Assembly: GCA_001791795.1 (NCBI GenBank)
Contig: MGFH01000152.1
Coordinates: 1-46,054, forward strand
DNA: 46,054 nucleotides
Reading direction: 5' to 3'
Origin: Candidatus Wallbacteria bacterium GWC2_49_35
GTDB taxonomy: Bacteria; Muiribacteriota; UBA9980
Both the position numbers and the translations under genes were made by a program. The notes beneath the pieces were generated by a model. The model had not been told where the DNA came from and did no database searches. It saw only the letters and a list, made by a program, of their open reading frames with translations. Positions 1-32,205 of the stretch are shown one piece after another. Each line of letters opens with the position of its first letter. Within the stretch, counting starts at the first letter, position 1.

Positions 1-1194
1 CTCGCCGGTCGCGTAAGGCGGGAAATTATAGTGCAGCATGAATTTCTGGCGCGTTTCTTCGTGGTGGAGGCCTTCGACTATCTGCTGGTCTTTCTTGGTG
101 CCGAGGGTCACCATCGCGAGCGACTGCGTCTGGCCGCGGGTGAACAGCGCCGAGCCGTGCGTGCGCGGAAGAATGCCGACCTCGCATGACAGCGGGCGTA
201 TTTCGGTGAGGGCGCGGCCGTCGACGCGGAGCTTTTCGTCGAATATCATATTTCTGACCACGTCGTATTCGACCGATTCGAGAACCGGTTTGATCTGTTT
301 TTTAAGGGACGCTATTTTGTCTTTTTCGTCTTCTTTGATGCAGGCCTGGGCGAGAAAATGCTCGATGCATTTCTCGACGGCGCCGCTGACGGCGTTGCCG
401 CGCGCCTGTTTGTCTTTAACGCGAAGAGCCGCGTCGCACAGAGGCTTGAAGAAATCGTAGACCGCCTGTTTTAAAACGGGGTCGATCTTCGGCTCGGGGA
501 CCGCGATCTTCTCTTTTTTGACCTTATTTATGAATTCGAGCTGTATGTCGATCAATTTTATCAATTCATCCTGGGCAAATTTTATGGCCTTCATGAATAC
601 GTCTTCGCTTACTTCGTTGGCGCCGGCTTCAATCATGAGAACGCGATCGCGAGTTCCGGAAACGAAAAGGCTCAGTTTGGCCTCATCCATCTTTTTTTCG
701 TCGGGATTGATTACGAATTCGTCGCTTCCTTCGAAAAGGCCTATGGAAACAGCCGCAACGGGAGCTATAAAAGGAACCTGGGAAATGCAGAGCGCCATGG
801 AAGCCGCGTTAACGGCCAGCACGTCGTGGGGCGTAACCAGATCGTAGGATAAAATATTTATTATTACCTGCACTTCGGACTTGAAACCTTCGGGAAACAT
901 AGGTCTTATGGTGCGGTCTACTATGCGGCCCCTCAGTATTTCGTCGTTGGAAGGCCTGTTTTCGCGTTTGATGAACCCGCCCGGAAACTTGCCGGAAGCC
1001 GCCGCTTTTTCACGGTATTCGACCGTAAGCGGGAAAAAGTCCACGTCGCGTTCGTTGAGTTTGTCGTAGCACACGCTGGTAAATACGACGGTTTCGCCGT
1101 TCTGAACAAGAACCGCGCCGTCGGCCTGCCTTGCGATTCTGCCGGTTTCAACTATAAAAGGTTTGCCGGCGTAGGTTGTCTGCATTCTTTCCAT
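1..1194 (-). CDS. pnp: polyribonucleotide nucleotidyltransferase (PNPase), N-terminal part, truncated by window edge
   Basis: Minus-strand translation from ATG at 1194: MERMQTTYAGKPFIVETGRIARQADGAVLVQNGETVVFTSVCYDKLNERDVDFFPLTVEYREKAAASGKFPGGFIKRENRPSNDEILRGRIVDRTIRPMFP..., typical PNPase first RNase PH domain. Not in the ORF track because it runs off the window. Confidence 0.97.
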   Translation of the reverse strand, partial: MERMQTTYAGKPFIVETGRIARQADGAVLVQNGETVVFTSVCYDKLNERDVDFFPLTVEYREKAAASGKFPGGFIKRENRPSNDEILRGRIVDRTIRPMFPEGFKSEVQVIINILSYDLVTPHDVLAVNAASMALCISQVPFIAPVAAVSIGLFEGSDEFVINPDEKKMDEAKLSLFVSGTRDRVLMIEAGANEVSEDVFMKAIKFAQDELIKLIDIQLEFINKVKKEKIAVPEPKIDPVLKQAVYDFFKPLCDAALRVKDKQARGNAVSGAVEKCIEHFLAQACIKEDEKDKIASLKKQIKPVLESVEYDVVRNMIFDEKLRVDGRALTEIRPLSCEVGILPRTHGSALFTRGQTQSLAMVTLGTKKDQQIVEGLHHEETRQKFMLHYNFPPYATGE

Positions 1195-16397: not shown

Positions 16398-17174
16398 CTA
16401 TTTTATTTGGCCCGCCGTTTCGTCATCGCCGTATTGCTCCGCGTAACTGACCAGGGCCAGGAAAGCGTTGCGGCAGACGTCTTCGTCGCTGTCGTCTATC
16501 GAGTTCAGCAGTATCTGGACGAACTCGTCCGCTTTGATCTCGCCGAAAGCGTAAAACGCGGAAGCTTTCATCCATTTATTGCGGTCTTTTATCATTTCAT
16601 CGAAAACTTTTCTGATTTTTGAGCGCAGTTCGTTGAACTCCCACAGCGCGATAGCCGTGTTGGCCTTGACCCTGTTAGAGGAATCTTTCAGGTAGGGCAC
16701 CAGGAACTCTTTGACCTTGTCGCCCCCTATTTTGCCAAGCGCCTCGACGGCGTTCGCGCGAATTCTTTTATCGTCGGACATCAGAAGACCCGCGATCACG
16801 GGGATCGTGTGGACGTTGCCCATTTTGCCGAGCAGCGTCAGCCAGATGGTCATCTGCATCTTGTCGTCGTCGTTTTTAAGCCGTATTATAAGATTGTTTA
16901 TTATCGGGATCAGGAATTTGGAATCTTTTTTCGACTCGCAGTCGATCTTTATTCCGGTGGCTATTTTGCAGGCCGCCGTTATTTGTTTCGCGTTAAAGGA
17001 ATTGTAATTTTCAAGCAGAGCGTCGATAAAGCGGACTCCATGTTTTTCGAGTTTCAGACAAGCTTTGGATTGTTCGGCTTCACATTCCAGGTCTAGTTTT
17101 TTGATATTATCTATTATTTCTTTTGTTACATCGACTGTCTTTTTCATCATAAATGTCCTCCAGACATCAAGCAA
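16398..17174 (-). CDS. HEAT-repeat protein (soluble)
   Basis: 258 aa; DDKRIRANAVEALGKIGGDKVKEFLVPYLKDSSNRVKANTAIALWEFNE... HEAT repeats; alternative start at the internal MMKKTVDVTKE. Confidence 0.88.
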   Translation of the reverse strand: MLDVWRTFMMKKTVDVTKEIIDNIKKLDLECEAEQSKACLKLEKHGVRFIDALLENYNSFNAKQITAACKIATGIKIDCESKKDSKFLIPIINNLIIRLKNDDDKMQMTIWLTLLGKMGNVHTIPVIAGLLMSDDKRIRANAVEALGKIGGDKVKEFLVPYLKDSSNRVKANTAIALWEFNELRSKIRKVFDEMIKDRNKWMKASAFYAFGEIKADEFVQILLNSIDDSDEDVCRNAFLALVSYAEQYGDDETAGQIK

Positions 17175-21816: not shown

Positions 21817-23994
21817 TTAAATCTTTTTAAGCCGCGTGGAATTGAGCACTACGAATATTGAAGACGCGGCCATCGCGAACGCCGCCTGCATCGGATCGAG
21901 TTTTCCCGCCATGGCAGACGGTATTAAAACGGCGTTGTAAAAAAAAGCCCAGAAAAAATTCTGCATTATCACGCGGCGCATCTTTCTGCCGAGTTCTATC
22001 GCCTTCACGGCGCTTTCGAGGCCGGAGCCGGTAAGGATTATATTCGCGGCGGTCCTTGCGATATTGGTCGCGTCGGCCATGGCTATGGCGATATCGGCCG
22101 AAGCCATCGAAAGCGCGTCATTTACCCCGTCCCCCACCATGGCTACTCTTCGACCCGGATCGTCCGCTTTAAGCCGCTTTATGAAAGCGGCTTTTTCATC
22201 CGGCTTCATCGAATGCCGGACGTTCGCCGCGTCGATACCGCAGGCGGCGGCGGTTGTCATCGCGTTTTTTTCGACGTCGCCGGTCAGAAGGAACACTTCT
22301 ATATTATTCGATTTAAGCCGTTTTACGGTTTCCGCGGCGCCCGCGCTCAAAACTTCGCCCAGCTCGAAGCGGGCCGCGACGGTCCCGTCTACCGATGCGA
22401 AGAAGACCACTCCGCCGCCGCCCGCAAGGCTTCCCGGCTCGACCAGTTTCGCGCTTCCGGCGGCCACTTTCCTGCCGTCACAAAGGGCAGTTATTCCCAG
22501 ACCGCCGCATGTCTTATAATCGGACACCACGGCGTCAGGTTCTACTCCGGAGCCTTTTGCGTATTCGACGAGCGCGCGGGCGGCCGGATGATCGCAGTAA
22601 CGCTCGGCGGATGCTACGAGCCTGAGCACGCCTTTTTCATCGAGGCCCGGCAAGGACGCGTAGACGGCATTTTTCACAAAAAGCCGGCTTTGCGTGAGCG
22701 TTCCGGTCTTATCGAAAGCGATGGCGTTTATTTTATTTATCGCGTGAAGAGAGTCGGGATCGGTAAAAATAATGCCGTGGAGCGCGGCGGTGTTCGCACC
22801 GAAGTAAAAAGCCGTTGGAAGAGCGAGGCCCAGAGCGCAGGGGCATGCGATCGCGATGACAGAGATCGCCGTCAGAAGCGAAAATTCGATGTTCTGCCCG
22901 AGAGCGAAAAAACGGACGGCGAAAGTGGCGGCGGCCAGAAAGAATATAACCGGAATGAAATAAGCGGCTATCGCGTCGGCCGTCTTCTGTATTCCGGCCT
23001 TTTTCAGCAGAGCCTGATCGAGCATATTTTCTATTTTATTTATGTAGGAGTCGCGCCCGGAGGCCTTCGCCCGCGCGAAAAATATAGCGTCGGAGTTCCG
23101 CGCCCCCGCCCAGAGGCTTCCGCCCGGCGCGGTATATACGGGAGCGCTTTCGCCGGTTATAACTGAATTTTCAACGAACCCTTCCCCGCTTATTACGATC
23201 GAATCGACCGGCACCATGCCGTTGGGCTTTATAACGAGCGTATCGCCGGCTTTGACTTCCGAAACACTTATTTGAAGCTGCTTTCCGTCTTTTTCGACCG
23301 TGCACTCGTCGGGCATCCCCTCGATTATTCCGCCGAGGCTGCCGAACGAGCGGCGGCGCATTCTTTCCTCGATGTGCTTTCCGATCAGTATGACGGCTAT
23401 TATCGAGGCGGATGAATCGAAATATAGTTCATGCGAGCCTTTGAAGTAATATAAAAAAACGCTCAGGAAAAACGACGAAAGAGAGCTCGCCGAAATAAGC
23501 GCGTCCATGGTAAGCGGAAGGCGGTTTTTGAACGTCACGAATGCCTTCCGGTGAAAACCGGCGCCCGAATAAAAAAGCACCGGAAGCGTCAAAACGCTCA
23601 TCAGCGGGGGCGCGTATCTCCATTGACAGAAGAACATGTTCAGAACGAAAACTGGAAGCGCGAAAACGACCGCGGAAACGACCCGCGGATCGGTGAACAT
23701 GCCTCCGGTTTCTTTGCCGGCGATTTTTTTCCCGCCGGACGCGCGGTCTTTTTCGGGCGAAGCTTCAAATCCCAGTTTCGATATAAGCTCGATAATCCGT
23801 CCGCTTGCGATAACGCTTTCATCGAAGACCACCCTGGCCGATCCGCTCGAAAAATCTACCGATATATCTTTAACGCCTTCCGCGCCTTTAAGATACGCTT
23901 CGATCGAATTGGAGCAGTTGACGCACGACATTCCTTTTATCGAAAGTTTAAGCTCGCTTGCGCCCGCCGCCGCGGCGCTTTTTTTTTCAGTCAT
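21817..23994 (-). CDS. heavy-metal (copper-type) P1B ATPase
   Basis: 725 aa; HMA domain GMSCVNCSNSIE; CPC motif ACPCALGLALP; DKTGTLT; MVGDGVNDALSMASADIAIAM. Confidence 0.96.
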   Translation of the reverse strand: MTEKKSAAAAGASELKLSIKGMSCVNCSNSIEAYLKGAEGVKDISVDFSSGSARVVFDESVIASGRIIELISKLGFEASPEKDRASGGKKIAGKETGGMFTDPRVVSAVVFALPVFVLNMFFCQWRYAPPLMSVLTLPVLFYSGAGFHRKAFVTFKNRLPLTMDALISASSLSSFFLSVFLYYFKGSHELYFDSSASIIAVILIGKHIEERMRRRSFGSLGGIIEGMPDECTVEKDGKQLQISVSEVKAGDTLVIKPNGMVPVDSIVISGEGFVENSVITGESAPVYTAPGGSLWAGARNSDAIFFARAKASGRDSYINKIENMLDQALLKKAGIQKTADAIAAYFIPVIFFLAAATFAVRFFALGQNIEFSLLTAISVIAIACPCALGLALPTAFYFGANTAALHGIIFTDPDSLHAINKINAIAFDKTGTLTQSRLFVKNAVYASLPGLDEKGVLRLVASAERYCDHPAARALVEYAKGSGVEPDAVVSDYKTCGGLGITALCDGRKVAAGSAKLVEPGSLAGGGGVVFFASVDGTVAARFELGEVLSAGAAETVKRLKSNNIEVFLLTGDVEKNAMTTAAACGIDAANVRHSMKPDEKAAFIKRLKADDPGRRVAMVGDGVNDALSMASADIAIAMADATNIARTAANIILTGSGLESAVKAIELGRKMRRVIMQNFFWAFFYNAVLIPSAMAGKLDPMQAAFAMAASSIFVVLNSTRLKKI

Positions 23995-24026
23995 TTTCAG
24001 TCACGAATCCTATCTTTTTAAGTTTT

Positions 24027-24689
24027 TCAGGACAAAATTGTTTTCAGCACTCCATAGATCAGCACCAGGCCGAAAAGTATGAAAAGCGCAGAGCATACGA
24101 AAGAGATCAGTTCGAAAAGAGATGCGGTGATATACTTTTTGCCTTTATGAACTATTTTCGCCAGAAGATAAAACCACGCCAGCGACCCGCAAAAGACGAA
24201 CAGCGAAAAAAGCAGTATGGACGTTTTCGGATAATCGGTGAAACTCGCCTTCATGCTGCTGTAGGAAGTCACCGCACCGAGAAAAACGACCCAGAAGCCG
24301 ATGACCATCGGGTTGGTCGTGTTGATGCTGAATCCCATCGCCAGAGGCGCGCGTTTCGAACCGGGGACCTTGATGTAATTCATGACGTCGGGCCTGTGCC
24401 TGTCGATAAAGATCGCTTTAAACCCCGTCAGGCCAAAATAAAGCATGAGAGCGGCGCAGCCGAATCCTAGAACGGCGTTGAGCAGCTTAGACGCCAGTAT
24501 TATTTTCACGACGCCGAAATAAACCAGAAGGCATAGCATGGCGTCAGAAAGCGCCGCACCGATGCCGACCTCTAAGGAGTCTTTGAAACCGCCATGCATG
24601 CCGCGCCTTATAAGTTCAATATTAGCGGGACCGATCGGTATCGATATCATGAAGCCGTAAAGCAATCCGTAAAACATAACCTTTATCAT
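24027..24689 (-). CDS. LysE-family translocator
   Basis: 220 aa; GFMISIPIGPANIELIRRGMHGGFKDSLEVGIGAALSDAM; NPMVIGFWVVFLGAV. Confidence 0.85.
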   Translation of the reverse strand: MIKVMFYGLLYGFMISIPIGPANIELIRRGMHGGFKDSLEVGIGAALSDAMLCLLVYFGVVKIILASKLLNAVLGFGCAALMLYFGLTGFKAIFIDRHRPDVMNYIKVPGSKRAPLAMGFSINTTNPMVIGFWVVFLGAVTSYSSMKASFTDYPKTSILLFSLFVFCGSLAWFYLLAKIVHKGKKYITASLFELISFVCSALFILFGLVLIYGVLKTILS

Positions 24690-24789: not shown

Positions 24790-24819
24790 TTGACAATTCG
24801 ACCGCAATATTATTACAAT
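24790..24819 (+). promoter_or_regulatory. sigma70-like promoter of HEAT/pseudo-phosphoesterase gene 1
   Basis: TTGACA (24790-24795), 18-nt spacer, TACAAT (24814-24819); followed by a perfect 9-bp hairpin 24845-24867. Confidence 0.65.
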
Positions 24820-24897: not shown

Positions 24898-27477
24898 ATG
24901 GACATTCAAAGCATAGAAAAATTATTGACATCTCCTTTCGAGACCGACCGGATAAGGGTCATTTATTTCGCGGTCAAAAACAAGCGCACCGACCTGCATT
25001 CTCTGATCAAAAATACGGCCGATAATGACGAAAGCGTTAACGTCCGCTATTACGCGCAGAAGGCCTGCGAGCTTTTCGAAGAACTGCTGACGGAGCAGAC
25101 GCGTGAAAAAGAGCTCGACAGCGAGCTCGAAAAAAAGAAAAGCGGCCAGACGGCCGTCCGCGACAGGATACTGGAACTTTTGAATTCCGAAGCGCCTGAA
25201 GACAGGATACTGGCCGCGAAGGCCGCCGTCAAAACCCGCGTCAGCGTCTTTCTGGACGCGATTTTAAAAAAGATAGAAACCGAGACCGACGAGTCGGTCC
25301 TGAGCGCCTTCATCAAGGCTGTAGGACACTCCAAAGATAAAAGCTACACTCCCATACTGCTGAAGTATTTGAAACATCCGGGCGCCGAAATAGTGCTTAG
25401 CGCGATCGAAGCTTTTTCTCTGCTGGACGACGCCAGAGCGTTTCCGTATATCATAGGCCTGCTGCATTCCAGCCGCGCGGAAAGCGAAACGGTAACGGCC
25501 GCCATAACCGGATACCTGACCAATTATCCGCCCGACAAGATCCATTTATTTCTGGTGGAAATGCTTAATTATCCGTCCGAAAACATGGTCGAAGCCGCGC
25601 TTAACGCCATATGCGCATTCAACTGCAAAAGATCTTCCGAATATATACAAAAACTAGCCGGCCACCGAAACGAAACCATTTCCGGACGCGCGAAAGCCGC
25701 CATGGAAAGCATTAATTTAAACGGGCTCGACGAATTCGACTTTTCGGTCTTCATAGAAAATCTCATCGCTTCTTTTGACGAGGCCCCCGGCGGCGACGCC
25801 GAAGAACAGGCCGGAAAAGAAAGCGACAGAAAAATAGACGAGCTTCGCGAGCTGATAAGCGGATCTCATCCGTCCGCCGAATCGAGGATCACCGAACTTT
25901 TAAAGAGCGAAACCGACCCGCGCGTTCTGGGCTACGCGATCTCGGCCTGCCGCGTCGTACACGGCGCGCGCAACCTCATGACATTGAAAAAATTTCTGAG
26001 CCATCCGGACGACCGCATACGCGCCAACGCGATCGAGGTCCTTGGTGAAACCGAAGGAATCGATCTGCACAATATCCTGAAACCTTTTTTGACCGACGAG
26101 AATAACCGCGTACGCGCCAACGCCGTGATCGCGCTGAAAAATTATCCCGACGTCGACCACTGCTCGATCCTGAAAACGATGATAGGCGACGATCAGAACC
26201 GGCTCATGACGGTTTCCGCCATATACGCCATCATGCAGATAAAAGGCGACACCGTCGAGCTGCTAAGGCCGCTGGCCAGGGACCGCAACGAGGAAATTAA
26301 GGTCAGGGCGGTGTCCGCCCTCGAATTTTTAGCCGGCGACGCTAAAAACATGGCCGCGAAAAACATACTCGGCGAACTCACCAGCGCAAAGCGCAGGGGA
26401 AAACATACGGCGGCCTACATATTCAACAAATCCTCGATGAGCGACGGCGGAGCGAAGAAACCGAAAGCGAAAATGTCGGTTTCCGCTCCGACGAAAAGCG
26501 TATACGTCGTCAACAAACTGGCGTTGTTCTTCAGAGCGTTCGTGCATATATTCCTCGCCTGCGCGCTCTGCGCGGCCTGCGTTTTCGTCTACCGCGAATT
26601 CGCCTCCACCGCGCCCAGAAGCGCCCTGAATCCTGTCGGTGTCATAGCCAACGTTTTCAGGACAAACGAAAACGACTCCAAAATAATCCTTATCTACACA
26701 TCCAACCTCGACGAGGTAATAGGCGATGCTGCGCCGTCGGCGGCCGCGAAAAAAGCGAAATTAAAGGATATCATAACCAAGGAGCGCGAAAACGCTAAAA
26801 AAGAAGCGAGTTTATTCCTTCTATTCGACCTGGGCAATCATTCGAGCTCGAAGATAAGCCCGACCGACAACACCGAAGGCGTTTACGAATTCCTCGACGA
26901 GCTCGGCTACGACGCCGCGTCATTTGCGGCGCGCGACGCGCTGTTCTGCTTCAACCTGCTTTCCGCCCGGAGCGAAAAATTCAAGCTGCCGGTCGTTTCG
27001 TGCAATATCATCAACAACGCTTCGAAGGAGGTTCCCGCCATATTCCAGACCGGCTACCGCAGAGAATCAGACGCTCTCGCTATCAGCGCGCTAGCCGTGA
27101 CCGACCGGTCCATGAATTCGAAACTTCCTTCGAACCTGACCGCAAGTTACAGCGTAAAAGATCCGCTTGCATCCATAGCGGACGGCTTTAAAAAAAATGG
27201 CGCCGGAAAACCTGTTCTGAAAATACTTTTATCGTCCAACACCGGCTCGCTGAGCGAAGAACTGGCCGCGAAAAAGACGGGGGCTGACATAATCATCGAC
27301 ATGGGCCACGGCCCGGAAGTGAGCATGCTGACCAACTACCAAAAAGCCAACGGCACTCTCATCCTTCCTTCGAAGATCAAAAAAGGCGCAGCGTATATAG
27401 GCCGTTTCGAGTTCATTTACGAATCGGCGTCGAAGTCGGTAGGCGAATCGTGCAAATGGCGCCTGAGCGAACTTTAA
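24898..27477 (+). CDS. HEAT-repeat / TM / degenerate 5'-nucleotidase-like protein, paralogue 1
   Basis: Start ATG 24898 (MDIQSIEKLLTSPFETDRIRVIYFAVKNK) matches the start of paralogue 2; HEAT repeats DDRIRANAIEVLGETEGIDLHNILKPFLTDENNRVRANAVIALKNYPD; TM ALFFRAFVHIFLACALCAACVFVY; C-terminal IILIYTSNLDEV...LFDLGNH...YDAASFAARDALFCF...IGRFEFIYE. Confidence 0.85.
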   Translation: MDIQSIEKLLTSPFETDRIRVIYFAVKNKRTDLHSLIKNTADNDESVNVRYYAQKACELFEELLTEQTREKELDSELEKKKSGQTAVRDRILELLNSEAPEDRILAAKAAVKTRVSVFLDAILKKIETETDESVLSAFIKAVGHSKDKSYTPILLKYLKHPGAEIVLSAIEAFSLLDDARAFPYIIGLLHSSRAESETVTAAITGYLTNYPPDKIHLFLVEMLNYPSENMVEAALNAICAFNCKRSSEYIQKLAGHRNETISGRAKAAMESINLNGLDEFDFSVFIENLIASFDEAPGGDAEEQAGKESDRKIDELRELISGSHPSAESRITELLKSETDPRVLGYAISACRVVHGARNLMTLKKFLSHPDDRIRANAIEVLGETEGIDLHNILKPFLTDENNRVRANAVIALKNYPDVDHCSILKTMIGDDQNRLMTVSAIYAIMQIKGDTVELLRPLARDRNEEIKVRAVSALEFLAGDAKNMAAKNILGELTSAKRRGKHTAAYIFNKSSMSDGGAKKPKAKMSVSAPTKSVYVVNKLALFFRAFVHIFLACALCAACVFVYREFASTAPRSALNPVGVIANVFRTNENDSKIILIYTSNLDEVIGDAAPSAAAKKAKLKDIITKERENAKKEASLFLLFDLGNHSSSKISPTDNTEGVYEFLDELGYDAASFAARDALFCFNLLSARSEKFKLPVVSCNIINNASKEVPAIFQTGYRRESDALAISALAVTDRSMNSKLPSNLTASYSVKDPLASIADGFKKNGAGKPVLKILLSSNTGSLSEELAAKKTGADIIIDMGHGPEVSMLTNYQKANGTLILPSKIKKGAAYIGRFEFIYESASKSVGESCKWRLSEL

Positions 27478-27557
27478 AAGACGCTTGCCGTTTATCGGCG
27501 CCGTGCGCGGTTTTTCATTATAAACGGCGGCCTGAATTAATTTTATGATTAAATTTC

Positions 27558-27586
27558 TTGACAGAAGGACTTAATGCAATTAAAAT
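27558..27586 (+). promoter_or_regulatory. sigma70-like promoter of HEAT/pseudo-phosphoesterase gene 2
   Basis: TTGACA (27558-27563), 17-nt spacer, TAAAAT (27581-27586). Confidence 0.65.
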
Positions 27587-27709
27587 ATATGTTATACATT
27601 TAAAGATCATTACATGATTTTCAGATACCAACATAAACGTCGCATCACGATAATGTTTTTATTCAAACAATGGCTTATAGTAAAATAACAGCGTTAAACG
27701 CGGTATGCA

Positions 27710-30310
27710 ATGAGCGAAAAAAATTTAGAATACTTACTGTCCTCCCCGTTTGAAAACGACAGGATAAAAGTTATATATTACATAGTCAAAAACAGGCTGA
27801 ACGAGTACGGCGAAACCATCAAAAAAATGGCCGCGGCCGACGAAAGCCTGAACGTCCGCTATTATGCGAGAAAAGCCTGCGCCTACTTCGATTCGATCGA
27901 TGACGAAAAAAAACGCGCCGAGGAAATCGATTCCGAACTCGAAGAGCAGAAATCCCGAAAACAGGCCATCAAAGATAAGATCAACGCGCTCGGCGATTCC
28001 GAGAACATCGAGGAGAGAATACTCGCCGTTAAGGGCGCGATCAAATATAAGCTCGAAGGCTTTATCGAGTTTTTAATGCGGCGATTGCACATAGAGACCG
28101 AAGAAAACGTGATAGCCACCCTGATAAAGGCATTCGGCTACTCGAACGACAAGAACTGCACTCCGATACTGCTGAAATACCTCAAGCACGCTAATTTCCG
28201 CATAGTCGCCAACGCCATAGAGGCTATCTCGATGCTCGACGACGAGCGCGCCTTTCCTCACATAATAGGGCTTTTGAACGGAGGCCGCGACAACCGCGTG
28301 GCCGCGAACATCATAGAATATCTGAAAAAATACGACGCCGAAAGCGCCATCAAGCTGCTCGAGGAGATGCTGAGCTTTCCGTCCGACGCCATGGTGGATT
28401 CGGCCGTTTTCGTATTGTGCGGCTTTAAATCAAAAAAGATCCTGCCGCTTCTTGAAAAACTCAAAAGCCATAAGAACCAGGCGATCGTAAAAAAGGTAGA
28501 AGCCGCGATAAAATCCATAAACATAAGCGGCGGTGAAACGCTCTCCATCGACTCGCTCGCCGATAATCTTATCGCCCGTGACGCGTCTTCGCCCGAAAAA
28601 TCAATTTCCGATTCGCTCGTCGATGGAAAGAACCAGGGCGAAACGAAAATATCGAAGATAAGGGAAATGCTCGCCGCGCCCGCGTCGCCGGCTTCGGTAG
28701 AGGCGCTCGCTCAAATATTCCGGGAGGAAAAAGACGAATACGTCCTCGCATACGCCGTTTCGGCCTGCTCGAAGATCAACGCCGGCAAGAACATAACCAT
28801 TCTGAAAAAATACCTGACCCATCAGAACCCTCGCATCAGGGCCAACGCCGTGGAGGCGCTAGGCGAGATCGAAGGCATCGACCTGCATTCGATACTCAAG
28901 CCGCTGTTGAAGGACAAAAACAACCGGGTGCGCGCGAACGCGATCATAGCGCTGCGAAAATATCCCAACATAGACCACGTTTCGTATATAACGGAGATGA
29001 TAAAAAGCGGCGACAAACTGATGATCACCTCTTCCATATACGCCATCATAAAGATCAAAAACGAAACCATACCGCTGCTGAGCGACCTTGTGAAAAGCGG
29101 CGACGAGGAAGTAAAGGAAAGAGCCCTTTCGGCGCTCGACTTCCTGGGCAACGACCTGAACGACCTGAACGCGAAAAAGCTGCTCAACGAGCTCGGCATC
29201 GGCACGAAGAACATATCTAAATCGGCGGAGTACATATTCTCGAAAACCGTTCTGGATCAGCTCGATGTGGCTTACGACGACACCATTTCCGAATCGAGCC
29301 TTATATCGTCTAAAAAAGCGCCGTTCACCTTCACGGCCGACTCAATCAAATCGCTGATCTCACAGAATATGCATATAATACAGAACACCGCCGCCGTTCT
29401 GGTTATACTCGCCGCCGTCCTGGGCGTCTGGAGCTTCTTCTCCTCCCAGACCGGCCAGAAAGTCCTTGATTATGTAAATATATTCAAGGGCGGCGAATAT
29501 AAGACGGTCATCTTATACACGTCCAATCTGGCGGAGATCATAAAACCTAAAGATGTAGGCCGCAGCAACGAAGAAAAGGTGGCTGCGCTCAAAAACCTCA
29601 TAAACTCGGAAAGAGCGGCCGCCAACGCCGAAAAGGCAGTTTTTATCACGCTCGACGCTGGCAACTATCTGTTCGACTCGTCGGAGATCGGCGTGAACAC
29701 GGAGGACTGCTATAAAACCATGAACGAACTCGAATACAGCGCCGCCGGTTTCGGCCTGCGCGACCTGATGTTCTGCTTCAATCTGCTCGAGATCCAGCCG
29801 CCGAAATTCAAACTGCCGGTGCTTTGCACCCACGTGACGGAAAATTCCAAAGACGGCGTCACGCCGGAGTTCTTCAAGCAGGTTTATTTCAAGAACGAAC
29901 GAGGCATAGTATTTTGTATGGTAGGCTTTACCGATGCGGCTGCCGCCTCGAAGGCGCCGGCCAAATACACTAAAAAATACTCGTTCAAAGAGCCCGCGAA
30001 GATCGCCGAACAGATTTTCACGCCCGAGTATATCAAGCCTTCCGAATATAACATGATAATAGCCGTCACTCACAACGGGCTGGAACATGCCCGCGACATG
30101 GCCCAGAAGGCGCCGCTCATTAATTTCATGATCTACCTCGACGACGGCTCTAAAAAAGAAAAGGCGTCAGGTTATACCCAGGTCGGGCCGGCCTACCTGC
30201 TGCCTTCCAGGATCGAAAAAAACAAGGTGAGCTACGGCCGGTTCGAATTCATCTACGAACGAAAACAGCGCACCATAAAAGACGCGCGTTTCGAACTGAA
30301 AGAACTGTAA
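27710..30310 (+). CDS. HEAT-repeat / TM / degenerate 5'-nucleotidase-like protein, paralogue 2
   Basis: 866 aa; collinear with paralogue 1 throughout; TM IIQNTAAVLVILAAVLGVWSFF; C-terminal VILYTSNLAEII...ITLDAGNYLF...SAAGFGLRDLMFCFNLL...VSYGRFEFIYE. Confidence 0.87.
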   Translation: MSEKNLEYLLSSPFENDRIKVIYYIVKNRLNEYGETIKKMAAADESLNVRYYARKACAYFDSIDDEKKRAEEIDSELEEQKSRKQAIKDKINALGDSENIEERILAVKGAIKYKLEGFIEFLMRRLHIETEENVIATLIKAFGYSNDKNCTPILLKYLKHANFRIVANAIEAISMLDDERAFPHIIGLLNGGRDNRVAANIIEYLKKYDAESAIKLLEEMLSFPSDAMVDSAVFVLCGFKSKKILPLLEKLKSHKNQAIVKKVEAAIKSINISGGETLSIDSLADNLIARDASSPEKSISDSLVDGKNQGETKISKIREMLAAPASPASVEALAQIFREEKDEYVLAYAVSACSKINAGKNITILKKYLTHQNPRIRANAVEALGEIEGIDLHSILKPLLKDKNNRVRANAIIALRKYPNIDHVSYITEMIKSGDKLMITSSIYAIIKIKNETIPLLSDLVKSGDEEVKERALSALDFLGNDLNDLNAKKLLNELGIGTKNISKSAEYIFSKTVLDQLDVAYDDTISESSLISSKKAPFTFTADSIKSLISQNMHIIQNTAAVLVILAAVLGVWSFFSSQTGQKVLDYVNIFKGGEYKTVILYTSNLAEIIKPKDVGRSNEEKVAALKNLINSERAAANAEKAVFITLDAGNYLFDSSEIGVNTEDCYKTMNELEYSAAGFGLRDLMFCFNLLEIQPPKFKLPVLCTHVTENSKDGVTPEFFKQVYFKNERGIVFCMVGFTDAAAASKAPAKYTKKYSFKEPAKIAEQIFTPEYIKPSEYNMIIAVTHNGLEHARDMAQKAPLINFMIYLDDGSKKEKASGYTQVGPAYLLPSRIEKNKVSYGRFEFIYERKQRTIKDARFELKEL

Positions 30311-30312
30311 AA

Positions 30313-32205
30313 ATGCTTGATAAAAAAAAACTGCTTTTTAATTCGCTGGCTGACGCAGCAATGTTCATCGCCGCGCCGAACCTGATCTTATTCTCACTGG
30401 CGGCGGCTTATGTACACTTTTACGTCCCGGACGGAAATCCCGCCCGGGCGGACCTCCCTTTCATTCTCACGCTGGCCGCCGTTTCGCTGCTTACGACAGC
30501 CGCGGGGGCTTTTCTCGCTTCAAAAAAAAGCTCGGCCCCCGTCCTGGGACTCGTAAGCCTGGCGAAAAAAATTCAAAAGGGCGAAAGCGGCTTTACGGCC
30601 GACCCCGACGCATCCGACGAAATCGCTTATCTGCAGAAGAGCTTCATCAGTTTTTCGAAAGTGCTCAACGAACGCGAACTTATGAAATCGACGTTTTCAA
30701 GGTATATAAGCGACTATATCGCCGATGAAATACTGACGGAAGACTCCGCGACGCAGTTTCTGGCGGAATACAGGAACGTCACCATACTTTTTTCGGACAT
30801 ACGCGGCTTCACGACGCTTTCCGAATCGCTCGAACCGAAAGACCTCTTCGACGTGCTGAACCATTATTTCGACCAGATGATAGACATCGTCATCAAAAAC
30901 AACGGCGTCATCAATAAATTCATAGGCGACGCCATAATGGTGCTCTACAACGCGCCGCGCCTGTGTGAAAACGCCGGCATCATGGCTATTATTACGGCGC
31001 TGGAAATGAACAGGCGGCTCAGCGAATTCAACCAGAAGTATACTAAAAAATACGGCGTCACGCTCGGCATAGGTATAGGCATCAACTCCGGACAGGTCGT
31101 CGCCGGCAATATCGGTTCCGAAAAGCGCATGGAATATACCGTTATAGGCGACACCGTGAACGTGTCGTCGCGACTTCAGTCGGTTGCCAAAGCCGGCGAG
31201 ATCGCGATATCGGAAAACGTCTTCAAGAGCGCCCAGTATGTCTTCGAGTTGAGCGACATGGGCGAGATAGAGCTGAAAGGCAAGCGCCAGCCGCTCAGGG
31301 TTTATAAGGTCACGGGCGATCTCGCGTACGCGAAAATAAAGGAAAACCTGAAATCGGAAGACGCCGAGGTCCTGCAGCTGAGCCTCATAGCCCTGGGGCG
31401 CGTCGAAAAACTCAGCCTCGAAAACGACCTGATGCCGATCCTCAAGAATAATTTTGAAAAAATACGCTTCATGGCGCTCGAACTCATAATCGAAAAATTC
31501 AAGCAGAAGGCCGAGGAATGCGTCATGTACGTCCTTCAGAACGATAAGTCCGAGTTCGTGAAAACCTTCGCCATAGACAAGATCGGCGCGCTCGGTCTCT
31601 CGCGGTTCGCCAATTTCCTCGCCCAGCAGTATCTCGCCTGCCAGTCGCTGAGGCTCAAAGGCGCGGTCATCCACTGCCTTTACAACCTGAAGGAACCCAA
31701 ATTAAAAGAGCGCATACTCTCGCAGTGCGCCTTTGAAAACCAGCCGATCATGGACGAGATCAAAGCCATTTTCGAAAAATACTCGAAACTCGATCTTTAT
31801 GAAACGCTCGAAACTATGCTTTCCGAAAACGTTTCGATCAGCGAGCGCAAGCTCGGCGTTTATCTTATGTGCAATCTGGGCCTTTCCACGAAGGCAGAGC
31901 TTTTGAACAAACTGTTCCGCGACTGCCGCGACGACGAACTTCGCAAACTCGTCGTGGCAGCTTTTTTAAAGATAGGCAGCTGCAAGAGCGTAATATTTTT
32001 GCTGAAGAACCTCAATAAATTCGAGAAGGAGATACTCAACAGCGCCTATAAGGTCATAGCCCATCTCATCGGAAAGTACCACGCCGACGAATATAAACAC
32101 GACCTGAGCGTCCAGATAGAACTTGATATAATCAAGAGCCTCATCCTGAGTTCCGAAGGCAAAAACTTCGAAAAATTGAAGGTCGCGCTCATCAAAAACA
32201 AATAA
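30313..32205 (+). CDS. membrane class III adenylate/guanylate cyclase with C-terminal HEAT-like repeats
   Basis: 630 aa; two hydrophobic segments, HAMP-like linker; VTILFSDIRGFTTLSE, INKFIGDAIMVLYNAP, EYTVIGDTVNVSSRLQ; then alpha-helical HEAT-like repeats to the C-terminus; 2 bp after the previous stop. Confidence 0.92.
   Translation: MLDKKKLLFNSLADAAMFIAAPNLILFSLAAAYVHFYVPDGNPARADLPFILTLAAVSLLTTAAGAFLASKKSSAPVLGLVSLAKKIQKGESGFTADPDASDEIAYLQKSFISFSKVLNERELMKSTFSRYISDYIADEILTEDSATQFLAEYRNVTILFSDIRGFTTLSESLEPKDLFDVLNHYFDQMIDIVIKNNGVINKFIGDAIMVLYNAPRLCENAGIMAIITALEMNRRLSEFNQKYTKKYGVTLGIGIGINSGQVVAGNIGSEKRMEYTVIGDTVNVSSRLQSVAKAGEIAISENVFKSAQYVFELSDMGEIELKGKRQPLRVYKVTGDLAYAKIKENLKSEDAEVLQLSLIALGRVEKLSLENDLMPILKNNFEKIRFMALELIIEKFKQKAEECVMYVLQNDKSEFVKTFAIDKIGALGLSRFANFLAQQYLACQSLRLKGAVIHCLYNLKEPKLKERILSQCAFENQPIMDEIKAIFEKYSKLDLYETLETMLSENVSISERKLGVYLMCNLGLSTKAELLNKLFRDCRDDELRKLVVAAFLKIGSCKSVIFLLKNLNKFEKEILNSAYKVIAHLIGKYHADEYKHDLSVQIELDIIKSLILSSEGKNFEKLKVALIKNK

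Follow-up and report, generated by a model that had tools for sequence, protein, structure and literature searches.

The described proteins closest to the two considered here, which we call A and B, belong to the UshA/5'-nucleotidase family (UshA, YfkN, YunD, CD73), with whose N-terminal metallophosphatase domain they have fold and motif order in common. They differ from that family in that their metal ligands and catalytic His are replaced, the UshA C-terminal domain (PF02872) is missing, and the domain is anchored by a transmembrane (TM) helix that follows a HEAT array. The best-scoring NCBIfam model for the domain is that of the UshA-like (seleno)protein NF041198 (UshA_like_PCGU). However, the A domain reaches 49 bits against a cut-off of 275, the PCGU/C motif was not seen in the sequence, and the architecture is a different one.

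A precedent for the gene pairing comes from the polyamine receptor NspS-MbaA of Vibrio cholerae, where a periplasmic binding protein steers the second-messenger enzyme encoded by an overlapping gene (PMC8967002). Like A and B, whose location and lack of catalysis are predicted, NspS lies outside the cytoplasm, is not an enzyme and has its gene next to that of a TM second-messenger enzyme, and the gene overlap resembles that of the GGDEF-linked degenerate UshA cases described below. In contrast to the present system, NspS binds polyamines, MbaA is no class III cyclase but synthesizes or breaks down c-di-GMP, and the available text of that source mentions no HEAT arrays (PMC8967002). HAMP-class III adenylate cyclases, in turn, resemble the neighboring protein C in their two TM helices, HAMP-like linker and class IIIb-type catalytic residues, whereas C has hardly any periplasmic part, carries a HEAT-like region at its C-terminus and has two neighbors of the HEAT-TM-pseudonucleotidase type in tandem.

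None of the building blocks is new: the 5'-nucleotidase fold, HEAT repeats and class III cyclases have been described, as have receptor-cyclase pairs. What appears new is the joining of HEAT array, TM helix and pseudonucleotidase domain in one protein, and the repeated occurrence of degenerate UshA-like genes beside GGDEF or other second-messenger genes; in the open-access literature searched, we found neither described. An earlier sequence-only reading, which had likewise known of no such family, is borne out to that extent. An apparent mention of UshA in a cyanobacterium paper turned out to be a pilus usher.

Architecture and Distribution of Proteins A and B

The window analyzed here is a 46,054-nt stretch, contig MGFH01000152.1 of Candidatus Wallbacteria bacterium GWC2_49_35. 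Within it, two intact open reading frames on the same (+) strand encode A (24898-27477, 859 aa) and B (27710-30310, 866 aa), which, with 38-39% identity over their full length, are paralogues by sequence. In each, a HEAT array at the N-terminus is followed by a single TM helix and a C-terminal UshA/5'-nucleotidase-type domain of ~270 aa (Table 1), and coordinates, HEAT_2 matches, hydrophobic helix and NCBIfam matches all agree with the layout that the sequence-only reading had proposed. HEAT_2 scored 94.5 bits in A, where the best stretch covers residues 362-444, and 125.8 bits in B, well above the gathering cut-off of 27.7. The two arrays are homologous, with 44% identity.

The HEAT array is predicted to lie inside and the pseudo-enzyme domain outside. 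This topology, which the earlier reading had proposed on the condition that the TM helix is a simple N-in anchor, is favored by the charge bias around the TM helix (net charge of the 30 residues before versus after it, +7 versus +1 in A and +2 versus +1 in B) and by the exported nature of UshA relatives.

Table 1. Features of the A-B-C locus (window coordinates).
Feature	Position	Residues	Strand	Basis and remarks
Promoter-like site upstream of A, TTGACA-18-TACAAT	24790..24819		+	Consensus match only
A, N-terminal HEAT array	24898..26442	about 1-515	+	HEAT_2 5e-27; predicted cytoplasmic
A, single TM helix	26536..26592	547-565	+	Kyte-Doolittle 2.37
A, pseudo-5'-nucleotidase domain	26665..27474	590-859	+	NCBIfam, AF2 model and Foldseek, ligand table, dN/dS 0.09-0.13; catalytic residues replaced
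Promoter-like site in A-B gap, TTGACA-17-TAAAAT	27558..27586		+	Consensus match only
B, N-terminal HEAT array	27710..29254		+	HEAT_2 8.4e-37
B, single TM helix	29387..29443	560-578	+	Kyte-Doolittle 2.21
B, pseudo-5'-nucleotidase domain	29486..30307		+	UshA model 2.4e-9, ligand table, dN/dS 0.06-0.07; catalytic residues replaced
C, two TM helices with short loop, HAMP-like linker, class III adenylate cyclase domain, C-terminal HEAT-like region	30313..32205		+	Guanylate_cyc 1.8e-33, HEAT_2 7.6e-6, genus synteny

A profile search over 40 genomes of the phylum, of the kind the earlier reading had called for, recovered the A/B architecture in only four genomes of a single genus, three of them metagenome assemblies. 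A single-protein scan of GTDB contigs returned just three loci, all from close relatives with 71-72% identity; A itself has 72% identity to two orthologues in the genus. When plasmid carriage was checked, no plasmid match was found for the locus. The order A-B-C, followed by ORFs sized like yebC and ruvC, is kept in related records of the genus, and the fourth genus genome has the order B-C-yebC.

Divergently from A (21817-24689, - strand) lie genes for a LysE-type transporter, identified by Pfam, and for a putative heavy-metal P-type ATPase, judged from its motifs; locus L026 also has ORFs of similar size in a similar arrangement next to A-B-C. A small HEAT-repeat protein of 258 aa is encoded ~8 kb upstream of A (16398-17174, - strand). 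HEAT arrays are common in this genome, fused to TPR, to WG and to another HAMP-cyclase, and the sequences suggest that HEAT modules have been shuffled widely in it. The HEAT-TM-pseudonucleotidase fusion would then be part of a broader HEAT-fusion habit. Two HEAT-TM-TPR proteins and one HEAT-WG repeat protein are encoded at L061:3207-5522, L059:4545-7151 and L056:7028-9529, and a second HAMP-class III cyclase-HEAT protein of the same genome, resembling C, at L058:5402-7795 (G000:C223).

A 5'-Nucleotidase Fold With a Replaced Active Site

Whole-protein searches against NCBIfam matched A to UshA_like_PCGU (4.3e-12) and B to UshA (Table 1), both under the curated whole-protein cut-offs. Bit scores to UshA_like_PCGU were 45 and 34 for the whole proteins, and membership among the PCGU selenoproteins was rejected on the cut-off of that model. 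All seven homologous domains (7/7) matched UshA_like_PCGU and several matched SoxB and CpdB-type models, while Pfam PF00149 was reported for none of the seven. Searched against the PDB, a profile of these domains found YfkN and UshA (E 6e-4 to 3e-3), as well as NadN and CpdB-type structures, at 6e-4 and weaker.

Further support comes from structure prediction. The AlphaFold model of A (pLDDT 79, pTM 0.84) was compared with the PDB by Foldseek, and the 50 matches listed were YunD, UshA, CD73, SoxB, YfkN and other 5'-nucleotidase/cyclic-nucleotide-phosphodiesterase relatives, with TMq 0.65-0.76 and E down to 3.5e-16. The model of B was poor (pLDDT 55), and its best PDB matches came from the same family. 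HMMs, the A model and Foldseek agree that the predicted fold of both domains is a metallophosphatase fold of the UshA/5'-nucleotidase type. This is what had been proposed from motif order: the A model matched UshA, SoxB and cyclic-nucleotide-phosphodiesterase relatives rather than an unrelated fold, and alignment largely reproduced the motif correspondences to UshA/SoxB listed at that time.

Of the UshA fold, A and B have just the N-terminal half: a Pfam-type domain search found no PF02872 in either, whereas the domain is present in the intact UshA of the same genome and in the other degenerate lineages. In UshA, this second domain includes a substrate-binding site (PMC10454023), and because it is missing from A and B, a nucleotide as their ligand is not supported. 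The earlier proposal of a ligand-binding sensor therefore loses its nucleotide and keeps its sensor, the latter on the strength of the operons described below.

Active-site residues were mapped against the intact own-genome UshA, which has DHDNHDHHH at D41, H43, D84, N116, H117, D120, H217, H252 and H254. At these nine positions A reads N-D-N-A-R-L-S-P-V and B reads N-A-N-L-R-M-H-S-K. The di-metal ligand set (D41, H43, D84, N116, H217, H252, H/Q254), complete in the intact protein, is thus N,D,N,A,S,P,V in A and N,A,N,L,H,S,K in B, and the catalytic His117-Asp120 pair is gone, replaced by R and L in A and by R and M in B. The first five positions (D41, H43, D84, N116, H117), which are the securely aligned ones, the last UshA motif being ambiguous (the GHGP of A can be aligned two ways), read N-D/A-N-A-R in A and N-A-N-L-R in B and are nearly unchanged in four species. 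The replacements N, N and R are invariant in 7/7 aligned domains, and thus in both A and B copies. Of the earlier claim that ligand positions are replaced and differ between the copies, the replacement holds, but A and B resemble each other over the first five positions, where each copy is near-fixed. Judged by these residues, the C-terminal domain of A and B is probably non-catalytic, as had been supposed.

The Adjacent Predicted Adenylate Cyclase

The sequence-only reading stopped at 30310 and missed both the adjacent HAMP-adenylate cyclase-HEAT gene C and the recurring operons of degenerate UshA-like and second-messenger genes. We consider that the functional unit extends beyond 24898-30310 to 32205 and takes in C. 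The B-C spacing is short in the genus genomes, and in the window C starts 2 nt past the B stop. The cyclase domain (30766-31305) matches Guanylate_cyc with 116 bits against a cut-off of 21.9. The HEAT-like region, from about 31426, scores slightly under the HEAT_2 cut-off, and the HAMP-like linker was not called by Pfam.

C keeps D162, D206, K202, T276, N283 and R287, located by motif, which we take to be the two metal-binding Asp, the substrate Lys/Thr pair and the transition-state Asn and Arg expected of a class IIIb-type adenylate cyclase. By sequence, C has all the catalytic residues expected of a class III adenylate cyclase, and its product is presumably cAMP. Since its two N-terminal TM helices are just ~15 residues apart, leaving almost no periplasmic part, C appears to have nearly no outer sensor of its own.

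Degenerate UshA-Like Genes Elsewhere in the Phylum

The phylum has many UshA-like genes and, besides A/B, three groups of them lack the active site. In the first of these (family f5), a TM-anchored UshA-like protein of ~710 aa keeps PF02872 and has a ligand pattern that is mostly NRDN[MLF]EH[LM]. Its gene lies directly upstream of a HAMP-GAF-GGDEF gene in 21/21 f5 loci (L096:338-2533, L097:2503-4608, L098:6043-8175 and 18 further loci, L152-L169), mostly with overlapping frames, although two of the 21 GGDEF partners are contig-end or broken fragments and the 21 orthologous loci are one inherited arrangement, the independent associations of degenerate UshA-like genes with second-messenger genes numbering two to four. 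The GGDEF signature of the partners is GGEEM in nearly all.

The second, C208-type group (ligand pattern IQDNRDQDT or similar) occurs in the window's own genome and in genome G008, upstream of a homologous HAMP-GAF-GGDEF gene in four of five loci; the fifth runs off its contig. At the own-genome locus (G000:C208, L030:3686-7485), the degenerate UshA-like gene is followed by that of the GGDEF protein.

The third group comprises ~530-aa UshA-like proteins with patterns such as VKSNITLDD, from 20 loci, 19 of them from f5. No recognized cyclase lies within 2.5 kb at these 20 loci. Instead, a GAF-HD-GYP gene is found downstream in 18 of them, and 15 of the 20 then carry a TM protein with HAMP and, given a long enough ORF, HEAT repeats (L199:4024-9832, with similar loci among L192-L211). 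In an hhalign comparison, a profile of this HAMP-HEAT protein was colinear with C over the HAMP, cyclase and HEAT regions in turn (probability 96.6, E 5e-10). The cyclase region of the HAMP-HEAT protein, which Pfam does not recognize, looks degenerate. The group had been chosen as a presumed intact control, and once it proved degenerate and linked to HD-GYP, the generalization that every degenerate UshA adjoins a cyclase was dropped.

Of the 22 intact UshA-like genes whose loci were read, not one has a cyclase on its own strand within 2.5 kb. Within the genome of the window, both degenerate loci (A/B and C208) adjoin a cyclase, as compared to none of six intact genes with one on the same strand (Fisher p=0.036). 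The same 3.67 Mb hold 11 GGDEF and 22 class III cyclase matches, which at an ordinary gene density would be roughly 1% of the genes, and cyclases are numerous in the phylum generally. Three intact UshA-like orthologues in three genomes of the genus (L172:4271-8236, G000:C21; L177; L178) each face a convergent class III cyclase gene at a distance of 413-522 nt.

A tree built without the ligand columns has a branch that separates all degenerate domains from the intact ones, with 89/87 support (not starred) and long-branch warnings; a single origin of the degenerate domains is possible. The recurrence of operons that combine degenerate UshA-like genes with second-messenger enzymes suggests a sensor role and is the best evidence for it.

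Functional Interpretation

We judge it somewhat probable that A and B are non-catalytic receptor or co-receptor subunits that regulate cyclase C through their HEAT arrays. The outer pseudo-5'-nucleotidase domain would bind a cue, be it a periplasmic protein, an envelope component or a small molecule. Binding outside would be relayed through the TM helix to the HEAT array and from there, by physical contact, to C, and A and B would thereby set its cAMP output. Several observations count against this interpretation: the architecture was found in one genus only, cyclases are numerous in the phylum, the independent associations are few, HEAT arrays are common and variously fused, one degenerate lineage adjoins HD-GYP with no recognized cyclase, and A, which lies 112-232 nt from B, may be transcribed separately.

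A competing account, in our view unlikely but the strongest of the alternatives, takes A and B to be membrane-spanning scaffolds or envelope tethers, whose dead fold binds an envelope protein or a partner protein while the HEAT array docks cytoplasmic machinery, the cyclase being a chance neighbor or only co-regulated. HEAT arrays are usually protein-binding scaffolds, and HEAT-TM proteins with other modules (TPR) exist elsewhere in this genome. A and B may also have their own promoters, as the promoter-like sites in Table 1 suggest, although the total of promoter-like matches over the whole region is near shuffle expectation. What argues against a chance neighbor is that the B-C gap is short across the genus and that degenerate UshA genes repeatedly lie directly upstream of second-messenger enzymes.

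Signaling could also run from inside to outside, with the cyclase or another cytoplasmic input acting on the HEAT arrays and so changing the outer pseudo-enzyme domain. The anatomy is symmetrical as to direction, and the near lack of an outer domain in C would suit this direction as well. Nevertheless, we regard it as improbable: a domain-model search found no cAMP-binding domain in A or B, and in the operons with GGDEF or HD-GYP genes the degenerate UshA-like proteins lack a cytoplasmic domain of any size, which makes them more natural as inputs than as outputs.

Continued catalysis, by altered chemistry or at an unusual metal site, might be read from the first Asp of the DxGD motif, which is kept, and from one His per copy (GHGP in A, VTH in B) near a ligand position. 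With at least five metal or catalytic residues replaced in both copies and all species, including both of NH(E) and the D and H of TNDxH, and with PF02872 absent, we consider this very improbable. That the domains are decaying remnants without function, as the loss of catalytic residues alone might imply, is scarcely credible: frames are open through the pseudo-domain in all four species, the replacements are near-fixed, and dN/dS of 0.06-0.13 (HEAT arrays 0.04-0.07) indicates purifying selection rather than decay, synonymous sites being near saturation in most pairs and the closest pair (dS 0.57) giving 0.09.

Returning to A and B as receptor subunits, we tentatively extend this interpretation to the phylum, as a possibility that we would not call probable. 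Here the 5'-nucleotidase fold may have been turned generally into a receptor for second-messenger signaling that no longer catalyzes. There would be at least four versions of it: the HEAT-TM fusion beside an adenylate cyclase, the TM-anchored protein and the C208-type protein, each beside GGDEF, and the ~530-aa protein beside HD-GYP and a HAMP-cyclase-like-HEAT protein. The version in A and B would act in trans, via a membrane-spanning HEAT protein, on a sensorless cyclase.

If true, an unexpected fold would join the extracytoplasmic receptors of bacteria, and the change from enzyme to receptor would have taken place inside one phylum in which intact and degenerate copies can be compared. The locus would also suggest how a sensorless cyclase could be controlled by a separate HEAT-array protein. 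Many of the genes in this phylum that would be annotated as 5'-nucleotidases probably do not encode enzymes.
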